Below, piece by piece: positions 3,229-11,209 of a DNA stretch of 64,000 nt. The position numbers and the translations under genes are program-made. Where the stretch lies: assembly GCA_020444175.1 (NCBI GenBank), contig JAHLLM010000023.1:1-64000 (forward strand). Reading direction: 5' to 3'. Origin of the DNA: Desulfobulbaceae bacterium. Its GTDB lineage: Bacteria > Desulfobacterota > Desulfobulbia > Desulfobulbales > SURF-16. How positions within the stretch are numbered: the stretch's first letter is position 1; each line of letters starts with the position of its first letter. The notes beneath the pieces are model-generated. The model searched no databases. It had not been told where the DNA came from and saw only the letters and a program-made list of their open reading frames with translations.

Positions 3229-4665
3229 TTATTTTTTTCCTCTCGCTTCCCCCATGGCAACCATCGGGTCTCCGGCATATCCAAGGGCGGCCCAGTCCAT
3301 GCGCCCACTGTCTCCATGGCAGTCAAGACAACCCAAGGCCTCTTCTTTAGCGGCAACCATGTGATTAATCGGCCAGAATGTCGCTGTCGGAGCAAAAGAA
3401 TATTCACCGCTGTAGGCGAGTCCTGTCGCCTTCATACCGGCTACAGCAGCCTTGTTCCAGTCAAAATTCTCCCAGTACGCTTCAGGGTCGCCCTTAAATC
3501 CGAAAACTTTCGGAGTGATAAGATAGTTGTTTTTGGCATCATAAATCTGCAGGCCTGTATGCATTTTAAACGGATGAATCTTAGAATCTTCATCCTTAAT
3601 GTCGCCAAGGGGATAATTTAATTTTGTCACCTTAACAGGATCAATTTTGTCACCGATCTGGTAGGCACCGGCACTGCCGTTATACCAGGCATAGACAGGA
3701 ACAACATTGTCCTCATATGTAAACCGTCCTTTTTTGGCAATGAAAACCTTGTGCCCATGGGCATCCTTTTCAACCTGTTTTTCTTTTGGCAGCCTGGCGG
3801 CCTGGGACCAGTCCCAGCTCATTTTTGTGGCATGCTTCTTGGCAAAAAACGGCACATGACAGGCCTGACAGGATACAGTGGCAACATGGGTATTCAACAG
3901 CGATTCGGCATGGGGCGCAGCGTCATGACAGCCTGTACAGGTAACAGGGTTGTCGCCCACAGGCGAAACCAGCAGTGCATTTCCGTTTATTTTATGACTG
4001 TTGGTGGCATGACATTCCTGACAGCTGAAATTCAGACTATCGGTTCCCATATGAAAATCTATATCTTTGCTGGGACTTATCAGCGACTGATCAATATCTC
4101 CATGCTTCACATTATTTCCTCCACCTCCATTGGCATGGCAGGTCAGGCAGTCATCGCGCTCCGGCACCCCGACATTCCGGGCAACCAAGACAAGATCAAC
4201 AGGCTTTTTATCCATACTGGCCTTTCCTGTAAATCCGGCAGGCATACCTGCACCTGCACCAGGCTTCGTGTATGTCCCAGTGGTGTCATGACAGACAAGG
4301 CAATCAACACGACTTTCATCGCCAAAATCAAAACTGTCGTCTTCCCAGCCATAACTCACGTGACAGCTTGTACAGCGTGGCCAGTTTGAGTTTATAGATA
4401 TGCAGAAATTATTGATGGCGTTTTTCTTGCCGCGCATAACCTTGCCATGCCCGTTGATATCCTGCTCAAGACTCCAAGTCCAATGGGAGGTAGCCATAAC
4501 CTGCTTCGAGGCATCCTCATGACACTCCAGGCACTGCCTGGTCACATCCATGGGAGTAGCAAACGGACCGACAATTGATTTATGACCCTCATTTGCTTCA
4601 GCCTTGCCGGGAACAGCCAGGGCCGACACAAGACAAAGAGCCATGAACGATTGATACTTTTTCAT
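3229..4665 (-). CDS. octaheme c-type cytochrome, tetrathionate reductase family
   Basis: A 478-residue periplasmic multiheme protein. After a signal peptide (about residues 1-24) there are eight CXXCH heme sites: near residues 45, 98, 122, 173, 215, 243, 266 and 446. The wide gap before the last heme and the 'SHWTW' and 'CISINSNWPRCTSCH' segments fit the octaheme tetrathionate reductase (OTR) family, whose Shewanella member reduces tetrathionate, nitrite and hydroxylamine in vitro. The physiological substrate here cannot be read from sequence. Start at ATG 4665 with AGGAGGG upstream. A sigma-54 promoter (4823-4838) and a divergent sigma-54 activator imply tight signal-dependent control. No quinol-oxidising partner is adjacent. 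Confidence 0.93.
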   Translation of the reverse strand: MKKYQSFMALCLVSALAVPGKAEANEGHKSIVGPFATPMDVTRQCLECHEDASKQVMATSHWTWSLEQDINGHGKVMRGKKNAINNFCISINSNWPRCTSCHVSYGWEDDSFDFGDESRVDCLVCHDTTGTYTKPGAGAGMPAGFTGKASMDKKPVDLVLVARNVGVPERDDCLTCHANGGGGNNVKHGDIDQSLISPSKDIDFHMGTDSLNFSCQECHATNSHKINGNALLVSPVGDNPVTCTGCHDAAPHAESLLNTHVATVSCQACHVPFFAKKHATKMSWDWSQAARLPKEKQVEKDAHGHKVFIAKKGRFTYEDNVVPVYAWYNGSAGAYQIGDKIDPVKVTKLNYPLGDIKDEDSKIHPFKMHTGLQIYDAKNNYLITPKVFGFKGDPEAYWENFDWNKAAVAGMKATGLAYSGEYSFAPTATFWPINHMVAAKEEALGCLDCHGDSGRMDWAALGYAGDPMVAMGEARGKK

Positions 4666-4822
4666 ACTTTTCTTCCCTCCTAAAATTGTTGACAAGTCGC
4701 CTGCTTCTTTTCAAATAAAAAAAGAGGCACAACCAAACAGACTTGACGATGCCGATTGCAGCAAAAATCAAATCCGTACTGAGAAATATCGTCCCTTCAT
4801 ACGATACAGTTCTCCAAGAGTT

Positions 4823-5075: not shown

Positions 5076-6464
5076 ATGTTCAATATTTCACTTGGAGAAA
5101 AAAACTGGAAGAAAATCATAGAAACAATGACCGAAGGTCTTATGCTGGTTGATTCGACAGGAAAGATACTCTACGTCAATCAGGCCTTCGCTGAACTTCT
5201 CCGCTATGAAAAAGAAGAACTTATCGGCAAAAGCTGCGAGATCCTGCAATGCGACACCTGCTTTGGCACCAGACAGAAGGGCAAAGGAAAATACTGTGGC
5301 CTCTTTCTCACGGGCGAGGCACGAAACCTCAAATGTTCATTCCTGCGCAAGGACGGAAGCCTTGTTTTCGTCTTAAAAAATGCCACAACTCTGCTAGATG
5401 AGGATGGGACAGTCAAATTCGGCGTTGAAAACCTGACAGACTTAAGTAGACTGAACGAAAAAGAACTCGTCATCACGGCCCTAAAAAAACAATTGCACCA
5501 CAACGACGGTTTTGAGGGACTTCTTGGCACCTCCCAGATTATGAAGCAGATGTTTGATCTTATCCAGAGCGCTTCCCAATCTGACGCTCCGGTCATTCTC
5601 TACGGCGAAAGCGGCACAGGTAAAGAACTGGCAGCTTCTGCGCTTCACAACCTCGGATTACGGCACAAGGGGCCTTTCATCAAGGTCAACTGTGCCGCCT
5701 TGAATGAGAATCTTCTTGAAAGTGAACTCTTCGGTCACACCAAGGGAGCTTTCACCGGTGCCGCTCAGGCACGGATGGGCAGATTTGAGGCAGCCCACGA
5801 GGGCGATATTTTTCTTGACGAAATTGGCGACATGCCGCACAGACTGCAGACCAAACTCCTCCGCGTCCTCCAGGAGCATGAGATTGAACGGGTCGGCGAC
5901 CATAACCCCATACCGATTAATGTACGAATCATCGCTGCAACCAACAGGAACCTGGAAAAACTCATCCAGGAGGGATTATTCCGACAGGATCTTTACTATA
6001 GAATCGGAGTCATTCCCATACACCTTCCTCCGCTGAGGGAAAGAAAAGAAGACATCCCCATCCTGGTAGAAACATTTATTGAACGCACAAGACTGAAAAC
6101 CGGCAAAGGGATTTTCAGCGTAAGCAAAGGTGCCCTGGAATTGCTTCAGCAATATAACTGGCCAGGCAACGTACGGGAACTTATTAATGTTATTGATTAT
6201 GCCTTTGTCCTTTGTTCAGAATCAGAAATCAAACCCCAGCACCTTCCGGCCCACTTTGCAGGACAACCAAAAATCCTCAACATCCCCCTGATCAAATCCC
6301 AGATAAACAAGTCCAGCGATCAGCGGGAGAGGCTGCTTGCCGCCTTGAAGTCAACAAACGGCAACAAGTCGGAAGCCGCTCGAATTCTTGGCATAAGCAG
6401 AGTAACCCTATGGAAACACCTTAAAAAATTCAACATTGAGATCGACAAAAATATCAGAGAATAA
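5076..6464 (+). CDS. PAS-domain sigma-54-dependent transcriptional activator
   Basis: 462 residues: N-terminal PAS sensor (about 10-125), AAA+ sigma-54 activation domain (about 145-375) with Walker A 'GESGTGKE' (177-184), the GAFTGA loop that contacts sigma-54 (224-229) and Walker B 'DEIGD' (248-252), then a Fis-type helix-turn-helix at the C-terminus ('SEAARILGISRVTLWKHL'). There is no receiver domain, so the signal is probably sensed directly. The PAS carries five cysteines (54, 59, 62, 74, 87), suggesting redox, heme or iron-sulfur sensing. GGGG seven bases before the ATG supports the start. It is divergent from the octaheme cytochrome gene, its most likely target. Confidence 0.95.
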   Translation: MFNISLGEKNWKKIIETMTEGLMLVDSTGKILYVNQAFAELLRYEKEELIGKSCEILQCDTCFGTRQKGKGKYCGLFLTGEARNLKCSFLRKDGSLVFVLKNATTLLDEDGTVKFGVENLTDLSRLNEKELVITALKKQLHHNDGFEGLLGTSQIMKQMFDLIQSASQSDAPVILYGESGTGKELAASALHNLGLRHKGPFIKVNCAALNENLLESELFGHTKGAFTGAAQARMGRFEAAHEGDIFLDEIGDMPHRLQTKLLRVLQEHEIERVGDHNPIPINVRIIAATNRNLEKLIQEGLFRQDLYYRIGVIPIHLPPLRERKEDIPILVETFIERTRLKTGKGIFSVSKGALELLQQYNWPGNVRELINVIDYAFVLCSESEIKPQHLPAHFAGQPKILNIPLIKSQINKSSDQRERLLAALKSTNGNKSEAARILGISRVTLWKHLKKFNIEIDKNIRE

Positions 6465-8196: not shown

Positions 8197-9174
8197 ATGT
8201 CCCTTGACCTTGCCAGAGAAGTGCTCAGGATCGAAGCTGAGGGAATTTCTGCCCTCATCGATCAAATCGGCCCTGAATTCGATGAGGCAGTCTCCCTCAT
8301 CATGAACTGCCCAAGCCGTCTCATTATTACAGGCATCGGTAAATCAGGCATCATCGGCCAGAAAATCTCTGCCACCCTGAACAGCACTGGCACGCCCTCT
8401 TTTTTTCTGCACCCGGTTGAAGCCATGCATGGAGATCTGGGTATTGTTGACGGAAATGATGTGGTGCTTGCCCTGTCCTACAGCGGCGAAACAACTGAGC
8501 TGAATATGCTTCTGCCCACCCTGAAACAAAGGGGGGTGAAAACCATTGCCATTACCCGACACAAAAAATCGACCCTGGCCACAATGGCCGATGTCGTGCT
8601 CACGGCGGAAGTCCCCAGAGAGGCCTGCCCCCTCGGCCTGGCCCCCACTGCAAGCACCACAGCCACTCTGGCCCTAGGCGATGCCCTGGCCGTTGTGCTC
8701 ATAGAAAAGAAAAAATTCGGAGCCAATGATTTTCGTCATAATCATCCCGGAGGCAGCCTCGGCGAGCGACTGAAAGCAAAAGTAAAAGAGGTCATGCTTA
8801 GCGGTAAACAGATTCCGGTAGCATCTCGAACTTCAACCTGCCGAGAGGCCATCAATACGCTCAACAGTGTGAACATAGGGGCAGTCCTTATAACTGACGA
8901 TGATGGCAGAACGTGCGGTATTATCACCGACGGCGATCTTCGCCGTCTCATCAGCAGACCAGAGCCTGTGGATGTGGGCAGCACCATGACCGCAGATATC
9001 ATGACACCGGCTCCCAAAACCATTGACGAGAACCTTCTTGCAGCAGATGCCTTAAGCATTATGCAGCGCCACGAGGTAACCGTTCTCCCTGTCGAGAACA
9101 AGGCCGGCAAACTTGTGGGGATACTTCACCTTCACGACCTGCTCGGCAAGGGGGAATTCAGACTTTTGGTGTAG
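8197..9174 (+). CDS. kdsD: D-arabinose 5-phosphate isomerase
   Basis: 325 residues: an SIS sugar-isomerase domain (about 35-170, with 'GIGKSG', 'EAMHGDLGIV' and 'SYSGET') followed by tandem CBS domains (about 205-325). This is the KdsD/GutQ architecture; the enzyme interconverts ribulose 5-phosphate and arabinose 5-phosphate for Kdo and lipopolysaccharide core synthesis. Starts three bases after purF and is probably cotranscribed. CBS domains may bind nucleotide or sugar-nucleotide effectors. Confidence 0.95.
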   Translation: MSLDLAREVLRIEAEGISALIDQIGPEFDEAVSLIMNCPSRLIITGIGKSGIIGQKISATLNSTGTPSFFLHPVEAMHGDLGIVDGNDVVLALSYSGETTELNMLLPTLKQRGVKTIAITRHKKSTLATMADVVLTAEVPREACPLGLAPTASTTATLALGDALAVVLIEKKKFGANDFRHNHPGGSLGERLKAKVKEVMLSGKQIPVASRTSTCREAINTLNSVNIGAVLITDDDGRTCGIITDGDLRRLISRPEPVDVGSTMTADIMTPAPKTIDENLLAADALSIMQRHEVTVLPVENKAGKLVGILHLHDLLGKGEFRLLV

Positions 9175-9383
9175 CATAGAGCAGGTCATGCTGAAGAAAG
9201 GAAACAGAACGCCAAAAGACTGGCCAGCACCATTAACACACATGTATCATTCATTTTTTTAAATACAGAAAGAGTGATTTTTTCTTCTTTGCGCATGCTT
9301 CAGGCCTAGTTGAAGCCCCAGGCACACCCGTAGAATTACCTACAATTCCGACGGGTTATTTCAGTTTTCCCTACTGAGACATA

Positions 9384-9412
9384 TTGACAAAACAGTCGCT
9401 TTTGAGTAGCTT
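9384..9412 (+). promoter_or_regulatory. possible promoter of the HdrC-MvhD-MetV operon
   Basis: TTGACA (9384-9389) is followed after 17 bases by a weak TAGCTT. Upstream at about 9328-9357 an imperfect hairpin (CCCGT..GAATT pairing with AATTC..ACGGG) is visible. The gap 9175-9489 holds no gene. Confidence 0.3.
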
Positions 9413-9489
9413 ATCTGTTGCTCTTTTCACAAAAGAGCCTATTTCAGATCGCAATTCATAATTTCTTACGAGATAAATAGAGGTAAACA

Positions 9490-10050
9490 ATGGGAATAGC
9501 CAGTAAAGAAATAAATGCAGCCTTCAGTGCTGAGGTAACTGACATCCCAGGTGGTGAATATCTGAATCGATGTTTTTCTTGCGGGGCCTGCAGCGGAATT
9601 TGTCCGGTAAGCCAGGCAATACCCGACTTTGATCCGAGAAAAATCATCCATATGATCCGCATGGGCCTGAAAGACAGACTTTTGAAATCAGATCTGCTCT
9701 GGTTCTGTTCACGCTGTCGCAGTTGTGTCTTTGTCTGTCCCCAGGACGTTCGTTTTGCTGATATCATGACAGCTCTACGGAACCTGGCATTAAAAGAAGG
9801 CATCATTACAGACCAGGATTTACTAGATAAAGGGAAATCAGCATGGGTTGAACGAGACCTGTGCGTGTCCTGCCTTACCTGCGTTCGGGTTTGCCCTTGG
9901 GAAATCCCCCAAATTGACAATCAAGGAGTGGCAGATATTAACGCTCGCGACTGTCGGGGATGCGGAATTTGTGTTGCTGAATGTCCAGCCCAGGCCATCA
10001 AGCTCAATGAATCCGAGGATGAAAAATTAATCGCCGCCTGTGGCGTTTAA
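9490..10050 (+). CDS. HdrC-like/ferredoxin iron-sulfur protein
   Basis: 186 residues and four predicted [4Fe-4S] sites. The N-terminal half (about 25-90) has two CX2CX2CX3CP motifs as in HdrC ('CFSCGACSGICP', 'CSRCRSCVFVCP'). The C-terminal half (about 120-175) has two bacterial ferredoxin motifs ('CVSCLTCVRVCP', 'CRGCGICVAECP'). It is therefore a fusion of an HdrC-type electron wire with a 2x[4Fe-4S] ferredoxin. It begins an operon with mvhD-like and metV-like genes. No HdrA flavin subunit or HdrB is in the window, so its electron donor and acceptor are open. Confidence 0.88.
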   Translation: MGIASKEINAAFSAEVTDIPGGEYLNRCFSCGACSGICPVSQAIPDFDPRKIIHMIRMGLKDRLLKSDLLWFCSRCRSCVFVCPQDVRFADIMTALRNLALKEGIITDQDLLDKGKSAWVERDLCVSCLTCVRVCPWEIPQIDNQGVADINARDCRGCGICVAECPAQAIKLNESEDEKLIAACGV

Positions 10051-10062
10051 GTGGAGAAGCAC

Positions 10063-10485
10063 ATGAGTTTTACTCCTGATATACAAGCATTTTGTTGCCA
10101 TTACACCTCCCAGCAGACTCTTGCTGAAGGAAAAGAAGGCTTAAAAGAAGACGGCATGCCGGAAAACGTTACCCTCAATCGTCTAGTCTGCACAGGCAAG
10201 CTGCAGGTGAGCACTCTGCTCAAGGCCTTTGAAGATGGAGCTGACGGCGTATATGTAGCCGGTTGTCCGGCTGATACATGCCATAACGTCAAAGGAAGCC
10301 AACGGGCGGCAAAGAGAGTTGCCGCCATTAAAAAGGCACTGTCCGAACTCGATGTTGAGCCTGAAAGAATTGAAATGTTTCACCTGGAAAGAGGATTCCA
10401 CCCCGAATTCATTGAGGCTGCCCAGGTTATGAACAAAAGAATAACTGAGCTCGGTCCCTGTCCTTTAAAGGGGGAGAAAAAATGA
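10063..10485 (+). CDS. MvhD/FlpD-type hydrogenase iron-sulfur subunit
   Basis: 140 residues of the MvhD family, which carries a [2Fe-2S] cluster and passes electrons between a donor enzyme and HdrA in methanogens and anaerobic bacteria. Visible features are 'FCCHYTSQQTL', 'NRLVCTGKLQVSTLLKAFEDGADGV' and 'AGCPADTCHN', the conserved cysteine positions. Start at ATG 10063, six bases after GGAG; the in-frame GTG at 10051 lies inside that site. Twelve bases after the HdrC-like gene; the next gene overlaps its stop by four bases (ATGA), indicating translational coupling. Confidence 0.88.
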   Translation: MSFTPDIQAFCCHYTSQQTLAEGKEGLKEDGMPENVTLNRLVCTGKLQVSTLLKAFEDGADGVYVAGCPADTCHNVKGSQRAAKRVAAIKKALSELDVEPERIEMFHLERGFHPEFIEAAQVMNKRITELGPCPLKGEKK

Positions 10486-11150
10486 TTATTGCAGAACGCA
10501 AGCCTATTAATGAAATAGTAAACATGGTCTCAGATGCCAAAAAAATTCTGCTCCTTGGCTGTCGTGGCTGTGTAACTGTCTGCTCTGCCGGCGGTGAGCG
10601 TGAGGTTGAAATACTCTCCTCACTTATCAAACTCGGCATGCAAAAACAGGGAAAAAGCGTTGAGATCATAGAAGGAACCCTGGTCAGACAATGCGATAAA
10701 GAATACATTGACTCCATTGAACAATGGAAAGGTCAGTATGACGCTATTGTTTCCATGGCCTGTGGAGTTGGCGTTAATTTTATTGCCAATCTTATGCCGA
10801 GCACCCGGGTATACCCAGCCGTCAACACCAGCTTTTTTGGCGGATCAGCCGACCAGGGCGTCTGGACCGAGCAATGTGCAGGCTGCGGGGACTGCGTCCT
10901 GCACCTGACCGGCGGCCTCTGCCCCGTTGCTCGTTGCGCCAAAAGCCTGATGAACGGCCCCTGCGGCGGTTCAGTGGATGGACGCTGTGAAATTCATCCT
11001 GATGTTGAGTGTATCTGGCAGTCAATCCATGACCGGTTGGGCAGAACTGGAAATGCAGATGCCATGAAAGCAATTGCCCCAATTCGCGACTGGAGCACTG
11101 CGGGTCATGGTGGCCCCAGAAAAACCCTGCGGGATGATTTAACTGTATAA
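10482..11150 (+). CDS. MetV-like protein (methylenetetrahydrofolate reductase C-terminal domain)
   Basis: 222 residues with the zinc/iron-sulfur domain called MTHFR_C. An N-terminal Rossmann-like part ('KKILLLGCRGCVTVC') precedes a cysteine-rich C-terminus ('CAGCGDCV', 'CPVARCAKSLMNGPCGGS', 'GRCEI'). MetV is the small partner of MetF in the acetogen-type methylene-THF reductase, where HdrCBA and MvhD can feed in electrons. Here metF and hdrA are missing from the neighbourhood and a terminator closes the operon, so either MetF is encoded elsewhere or this trio serves another reaction. Confidence 0.88.
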   Translation: MIIAERKPINEIVNMVSDAKKILLLGCRGCVTVCSAGGEREVEILSSLIKLGMQKQGKSVEIIEGTLVRQCDKEYIDSIEQWKGQYDAIVSMACGVGVNFIANLMPSTRVYPAVNTSFFGGSADQGVWTEQCAGCGDCVLHLTGGLCPVARCAKSLMNGPCGGSVDGRCEIHPDVECIWQSIHDRLGRTGNADAMKAIAPIRDWSTAGHGGPRKTLRDDLTV

Positions 11151-11176: not shown

Positions 11177-11209
11177 AAAAAGGCCGCTTTGCAAAAAGTG
11201 GCCTTTTTT
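11177..11209 (+). terminator. intrinsic terminator of the HdrC-MvhD-MetV operon
   Basis: AAAAAGGCC and GGCCTTTTTT flank a 14-base loop, 26 bases after the metV-like stop codon. Confidence 0.85.

Follow-up and report, generated by a model that had tools for sequence, protein, structure and literature searches.

The window, which is the whole 64 kb stretch of DNA that was analysed, is part of contig C90 of a 5.4 Mb genome from the order Desulfobulbales. It contains three tightly spaced open reading frames on the forward strand, followed by a hairpin. The features are as follows.

9490–10050, + strand: HdrC/ferredoxin chimera, 186 amino acids (open reading frame list, Pfam and matches to solved structures)
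10051–10485, + strand: MvhD/FlpD-type [2Fe-2S] protein, 144 amino acids counted from the listed GTG
10482–11150, + strand: MetV, iron–sulfur subunit of methylene-THF reductase (MTHFR), 222 amino acids (PF12225)
11177–11208, + strand: intrinsic terminator hairpin that closes the three-gene unit (inverted repeat, and fold with z = −5.35)

The open reading frames, Pfam and the structure matches confirm the HdrC-ferredoxin, MvhD and MetV trio that the sequence-only reading had placed at 9490–11150, together with its observation that MetF, HdrA and HdrB are all missing from the trio itself. The metV gene overlaps mvhD by 4 bases. The true start of mvhD is probably the ATG at 10063, which is preceded by GGAG, rather than the listed GTG at 10051.

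The unit had been described as a closed operon with a terminator at 11177, and the folding bears this out. The arms of the hairpin (11177–11190 and 11195–11208) are 93% complementary and are connected by a loop of 4 nt; the fold is scored at −23.7 kcal/mol (z = −5.35), and none of 200 shuffled sequences was as good. The hairpin is not listed by a scan for consensus promoter and terminator patterns, perhaps because the T run is paired within the stem. Three promoter-like sites were found on the two strands against 2.5 expected, so there is no excess over chance, and no Rfam family reached its gathering score anywhere in the window. Elsewhere in the window an octaheme c-type cytochrome of the tetrathionate reductase family (3229–4695; TIGR04315, 579 bits) lies upstream of a sigma-54 activator with a PAS domain (5076–6464).

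The product of the first gene has four CxxCxxCxxxC motifs, and its Pfam matches are models of the 4Fe-4S ferredoxin type. Among solved structures the best match to residues 8–106 is HdrC (8rvv_C, 6.3e-19), while residues 120–182 match the C-terminal ferredoxin domain of HdrA (8rvv_A, 575–636). The protein is thus predicted to comprise an N-terminal HdrC-like domain with two [4Fe-4S] clusters and a C-terminal domain with two further [4Fe-4S] clusters that resembles the C-terminus of HdrA. It joins two electron-carrying parts of HdrABC, and is followed by an MvhD of its own. The chimera scores 77.8 bits against TIGR03290, the equivalog for HdrC of methanogens, where the family cut-off is 160; the N-terminal half is best described as an HdrC-like domain and not as a member of that family. 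There is also some similarity between this half and the N-terminus of QmoC (75.5 bits, under the cut-off of that family). All 16 motif cysteines are invariant in the 30 aligned rows.

The second protein matches PF02662 (FlpD) with an E-value of 1.9e-32 and 112.3 bits, well above the cut-off of 22.3. Cys72 and Cys77 are present in 32 of 32 rows, and Cys16 and Cys47 in 31, the remaining row being gapped there. Residues 111–205 of the third protein match PF12225 (MTHFR C-terminal) at 1.1e-35 (121.7 bits; cut-off 23), and 13 of its cysteines are invariant in all 38 aligned rows of relatives. Its predicted model is of moderate quality (pLDDT 76.5). A Foldseek comparison of the model with the PDB gave no match at E ≤ 0.001, the best being Dph2 at 0.004, and a sequence search of the PDB returned four matches (best E 0.1) that were taken as chance.

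The genome contains three MTHFR-type genes, one on contig C1 and two on C78. In the C1 protein (886 amino acids) an MTHFR domain at the N-terminus is followed by a CdhD domain at the C-terminus, the latter named AcsD here. On C78 there are a 510-amino-acid MetF–MetV fusion, which is thus on another contig than the trio, and a 633-amino-acid protein that begins with a homocysteine-methyltransferase domain and ends with an MTHFR domain. Only two genes match PF12225, namely the metV of the trio and the MetF–MetV fusion on C78, and there is none on C1. The MetF and MetV that an Hdr-type MTHFR requires are both present in the genome, at separate loci.

The C1 gene lies in a Wood–Ljungdahl cluster with the order FolD, CooS, MetF–AcsD, AcsB, AcsC, a formate dehydrogenase with a GltD-like part, HdrA and MvhD1. 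Pfam confirms CooS, AcsB, AcsC, the HdrA-type domains, MvhD and the molybdopterin oxidoreductase; the names FolD and GltD-like are our own reading. The HdrA is 1050 amino acids long with two HdrA modules, and carries a glutamate/lysine pair in each (E249/K302 in module 1 and E754/K795 in module 2). Such a pair is given as the criterion for bifurcating flavins in HdrA (PMC9430772, section 5). Over the 20 loci examined, it is present in module 1 in all and in module 2 in 19. There are in-frame TGA codons in the HdrA, FdhA and MvhD1 genes of the cluster (L015:9935–15891). In HdrA and in MvhD1 one of these aligns with a conserved cysteine, so that selenocysteine is likely at these positions. The CCG domain that marks HdrB (PF02754) is matched on C71, C56 and C6 only; the profile gave no match on C1 or C90 or in the window. 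Contig C56 carries its own HdrC–HdrB–HdrA–MvhD set, including its HdrB, and neither MetF nor MetV was matched on it. A further HdrA–MvhD pair is present on C37. A standard metVF-hdrCBA-mvhD operon elsewhere in the genome, of which the trio might have been a decayed duplicate, was looked for and is not present.

On C1 the MetF is fused in frame to AcsD/CdhD through a linker rich in Ala, Glu and Lys (L012:5847–8507). MetF and AcsD form a single open frame (808–1111 amino acids) in 21 of the 24 loci that have both, and are separate genes in L074, L075 and L077. All six of the named genomes that were searched have a long frame (832–910 amino acids) that spans the two. The fusion suggests channelling of the methyl group. 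Searches of the open-licence PMC library brought up no description of it.

The arrangement of the trio depends upon lineage. From the MetV match list of the window's order 20 loci were chosen. In 16 of these the trio is a separate unit with the order HdrC/Fd–MvhD–MetV, and the other four are MetF operons with a different MetV that is 44–55% identical to that of the window. Amino acid identity among stand-alone loci of related genomes is 59–90%, and such conservation of the trio as a unit would not arise by chance. Another 16 loci represent other lineages of the phylum and were mostly picked for the best MetV scores. In 13 of them the genes form one run, HdrA–MvhD1–HdrC/Fd–MvhD2–MetV–MetF–AcsD–AcsB–AcsC, with two unrelated genes between HdrA and MvhD1 in one (L077). 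No CCG domain of the HdrB type was found in the fetched operon stretch of any of the 13. The remaining three (L074, L079 and L080) are different MetF operons; L074 (G209) contains two MetV–MetF pairs, one beside AcsD/AcsB and the other beside HdrA–MvhD.

Nine Wood–Ljungdahl clusters fetched from the window's order have the complementary content. In all nine, HdrA–MvhD1 follows AcsC, FdhA is found in seven, and the trio is absent from the fetched stretch in every one; two further fetched pieces repeat parts of two of the nine and were not counted separately. The trio belongs to the acs operon in relatives, but not in the window's own order. In a sample of 394 genomes drawn from the phylum, MetV was found at E ≤ 1e-105 in 13, all of the window's order, and the best value outside the order was 3.1e-99.

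Named genomes show the same two arrangements. Of the best 80 loci that were kept, 64 are stand-alone and 16 are contiguous with the operon as far as their contigs reach, one being cut before MetF. In 62 of the 64 stand-alone loci the downstream sequence is present with no reference gene within 200 bases, and the other two end at a contig edge; four of the 64 are cut upstream. The stand-alone trio occurs in Desulfurivibrio sp. AMeS2 (L107), Candidatus Electrothrix gigas, Desulfocapsa, Candidatus Desulfobia pelagia and Candidatus Desulfobulbus rimicarensis, and the contiguous form in Thermosulfurimonas dismutans and Candidatus Desulfaltia bathyphila. In 17 of the best 80 named loci (L097, L098, L126, L131 and others) a MetF–MetV fusion gene is found upstream of purF–kdsD–trio.

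Within the order, the trio and the fused type of MetF generally occur together. If the trio is called from MetV at E ≤ 1e-105 and the fused type from MetF at E ≤ 1e-150 (which counts that type by score and not by the fusion in each genome, some listed frames being shorter), 105 of 197 genomes have both, 14 the trio only, 8 the MetF type only and 70 neither. Most of the 22 discordant genomes are fragmented drafts, and one of the eight with MetF only (G187) has a partial trio MetV (residues 1–142, 77% identical) that was scored as trio-less. For the 69 genomes with ≤ 100 contigs the corresponding numbers are 41, 2, 0 and 26; the two that have the trio without the MetF type (G059 and G150) are also without AcsB. 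An AcsB at least 80% identical to that of the window's genome is found in 118 genomes, 111 of which have the trio. None of the 42 genomes with a weaker AcsB (57–68% identity where printed) has it, and it is present in 7 of the 33 genomes with no AcsB match; four genomes, one with the trio, were left out of this count as ambiguous. The two sorts of AcsB alternate between genera of one family (f7). The Fisher values for co-occurrence (1e-29 and 5e-17) do not count as independent tests, since common descent accounts for part of the pattern and inflates the counts. MetV at E ≤ 1e-105 is present in 119 of the 197 genomes and is 69–90% identical there, the same range as its neighbours PurF and KdsD where those adjoin the trio.

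A maximum likelihood tree of MetV was calculated from 135 rows, and is drawn with a midpoint root only. A single branch (100/99) unites the 73 stand-alone rows with three contig-edge rows, and because the latter fall within it the stand-alone group, as labelled, needs four changes. The addition of 26 operon rows and two more cut loci gives a branch of 104 rows (99/96) that lies apart from the other MetF-linked MetVs. One acs-linked row (L074_3322), on a very long branch, is outside it. The stand-alone branch excludes two operon branches (of 5 and 23 rows), so that if the other MetVs are taken as outgroup the simplest history would be a single relocation of the trio out of the operon.

We consider it likely that the trio is the relocated electron-transfer arm of a Wood–Ljungdahl Hdr-type MTHFR that lacks HdrB, acting in trans. 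The sequence-only reading had proposed a plug-in wire for a distant MetF/HdrA. This agrees well with the presence on C1 of a Wood–Ljungdahl-type MetF without a MetV of its own, together with HdrA–MvhD, and with the 13 of 16 operons in which the parts are contiguous. The co-occurrence and the synteny make its other suggestion, a distinct complex that puts the MetV fold to another use, less likely. Its proposed searches for metF, hdrA and hdrB and for a conserved neighbourhood thus located metF and hdrA on C1 and HdrB-type CCG domains on C71, C56 and C6, and found the trio stand-alone in the window's order and within the operon in the 13 other-lineage loci.

The partnership of the trio with the Wood–Ljungdahl MetF is strongly supported by these comparisons of genes. 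The flow of electrons, its direction, the iron–sulfur chain and the bifurcation are inferred from the domains alone. The trio proteins would assemble in trans with their C1 partners. HdrA, with its two modules each carrying an E/K pair, would take electrons from the side of MvhD1 and formate dehydrogenase, and the HdrC domain of the chimera would dock on HdrA at the place that HdrC occupies in HdrABC. Electrons would then pass from HdrA via the four [4Fe-4S] clusters of HdrC/Fd and the [2Fe-2S] cluster of MvhD2 to MetV, and from there to the FAD of MetF, which would reduce CH2-THF, or oxidize CH3-THF with the pathway in reverse. CH2-THF (with a potential of −200 mV as given in PMC9430772) would replace the heterodisulfide as the acceptor of higher potential, so that HdrB would not be needed. 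As a single polypeptide contains both MetF and AcsD, which is a CFeSP subunit, the methyl group would arise in the immediate vicinity of its acceptor, the corrinoid protein.

The choice of partners might be different. The trio could act as a non-bifurcating wire, with HdrC/Fd fed by reduced ferredoxin or by Hdr/Qmo machinery elsewhere instead of by the C1 HdrA. In favour of this, both domains of the chimera are ferredoxin-like, the HdrC half has the subthreshold resemblance to QmoC noted above (75.5 bits), C56 offers an HdrC–HdrB–HdrA–MvhD set, and the MetVF pair of acetogens accepts electrons from ferredoxin in vitro (PMC9430772). We nevertheless regard such a wire as rather unlikely, given that HdrA–MvhD1 precedes the trio in the contiguous operons and is retained in all nine Wood–Ljungdahl clusters fetched from the order. 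The HdrA partner could also be that of the C56 set or of the C37 HdrA–MvhD pair instead of the C1 copy.

It is much less probable that the trio serves the 510-amino-acid MetF–MetV fusion in methionine or one-carbon metabolism and not the Wood–Ljungdahl MetF. The window's genome does have the fusion gene, and its position upstream of purF–kdsD–trio in 17 of the best 80 named loci leaves room for a second MetF partner. However, two other genes separate the fusion from the trio, the fusion protein has a MetV C-terminal domain of its own, and where the operon is contiguous the trio is followed by the Wood–Ljungdahl MetF. Moreover, two nearly complete genomes (G140, 99%, and G141, 100%) have the trio and a Wood–Ljungdahl-type MetF with a single MetV-family match, i.e. 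no fusion at the threshold used, which rules out the fusion as an obligate partner. It is hardly credible that the trio is a remnant in decay that no longer has a role. It is indeed separated from its original operon, but every cluster cysteine is kept, and the identity of MetV across the order (69–90% in 119 of 197 genomes) matches that of PurF and KdsD. This conservation of cysteines and sequence rules out a decayed duplicate, and with only two PF12225 genes in the genome the finding that the sequence-only reading had named as refuting its proposal did not appear.

The proposed relocated arm and its C1 partners most closely resemble, and would work like, the Hdr-type MTHFR of Moorella thermoacetica and Sporomusa ovata (HdrCBA-MvhD-MetVF), the subunits of which interact by pull-down in S. 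ovata (PMC9430772). They share MetV, MvhD, an HdrC-type protein, an HdrA with two flavin modules and a linked MetF. Several features set the present system apart: the gene set lacks HdrB and contains two MvhDs, the HdrC part continues into a ferredoxin domain of the HdrA type, and MetF is joined to AcsD. In other lineages the genes are found within the acs operon, and in the window's order they are divided between two loci. Since one defining feature, an HdrB in the gene set, fails, we file the system as a variant of this type, known here from its genes. With the MetVF-type MTHFR of Clostridium ljungdahlii it shares the core of MetV and MetF (PMC9430772, PMC8515935 and PMC8760232). That type has no Hdr or MvhD parts; in the present genome the MetF carries AcsD on the same chain, and the gene for MetV is at another locus. 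In the methanogen HdrABC–MvhAGD complex (PDB 5odc and 8rvu) HdrC and the C-terminal ferredoxin domain of HdrA match the chimera, and the E/K pair of HdrA is kept; in contrast, the trio is without HdrB and hydrogenase genes, and its acceptor would be CH2-THF.

The presence of HdrA beside Wood–Ljungdahl genes has already been reported (PMC10553843, PMC12142623 and PMC10608574). For the Seep-SRB clades (PMC10553843) and Ca. Contubernalis (PMC10608574) the pertinent passages place HdrA, with or without MvhD, in or beside acs clusters. These are metF–HdrABC or HdrABC with B and C present, and an HdrC/Fd–MvhD–MetV trio is not described in those passages. The account of Desulfurivibrio dismutans AMeS2 in the main text of PMC12142623 has fdhAB-hdrL-mvhD beside the Wood–Ljungdahl genes, with similar expression across the cluster, and so includes FdhAB, HdrA and MvhD of the same kind as here. 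That text ties HdrL to DsrC and formate dehydrogenase, and does not contain the words metF or metV. AMeS2 has both the stand-alone trio (L107) and the MetF–AcsD fusion. Searches of the open-licence PMC library likewise brought up no account of the three genes as a unit.

How CH2-THF reduction is coupled to energy conservation in anaerobic autotrophs is an old question. We tentatively suggest, with slightly less than even confidence, that the genes may define a distinct class of MTHFR. This would be a tandem-bifurcating complex without HdrB in which the HdrC/HdrA-ferredoxin chimera feeds MvhD2–MetV–MetF, CH2-THF replaces the heterodisulfide, and tethering of MetF to the corrinoid protein couples formation of the methyl group to its transfer. 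It would occur in sulfur disproportionators, cable bacteria and thermophiles (Thermosulfurimonas), and be divided between two loci in one order. For work on sulfur disproportionators and cable bacteria, the result indicates which proteins should be co-purified.

An annotation that relies only on gene neighbourhood can overlook the electron arm, as for Candidatus Desulfobulbus rimicarensis DR15, which is described as lacking metV in PMC7117923. In the assembly named in that paper (RKSL01) contig RKSL01000077.1 (L144) encodes HdrC/Fd at 8913–9470, MvhD at 9528–9932 and MetV at 10001–10666, and this contradicts the absence stated there. The same assembly has an 895-amino-acid MetF–AcsD frame.
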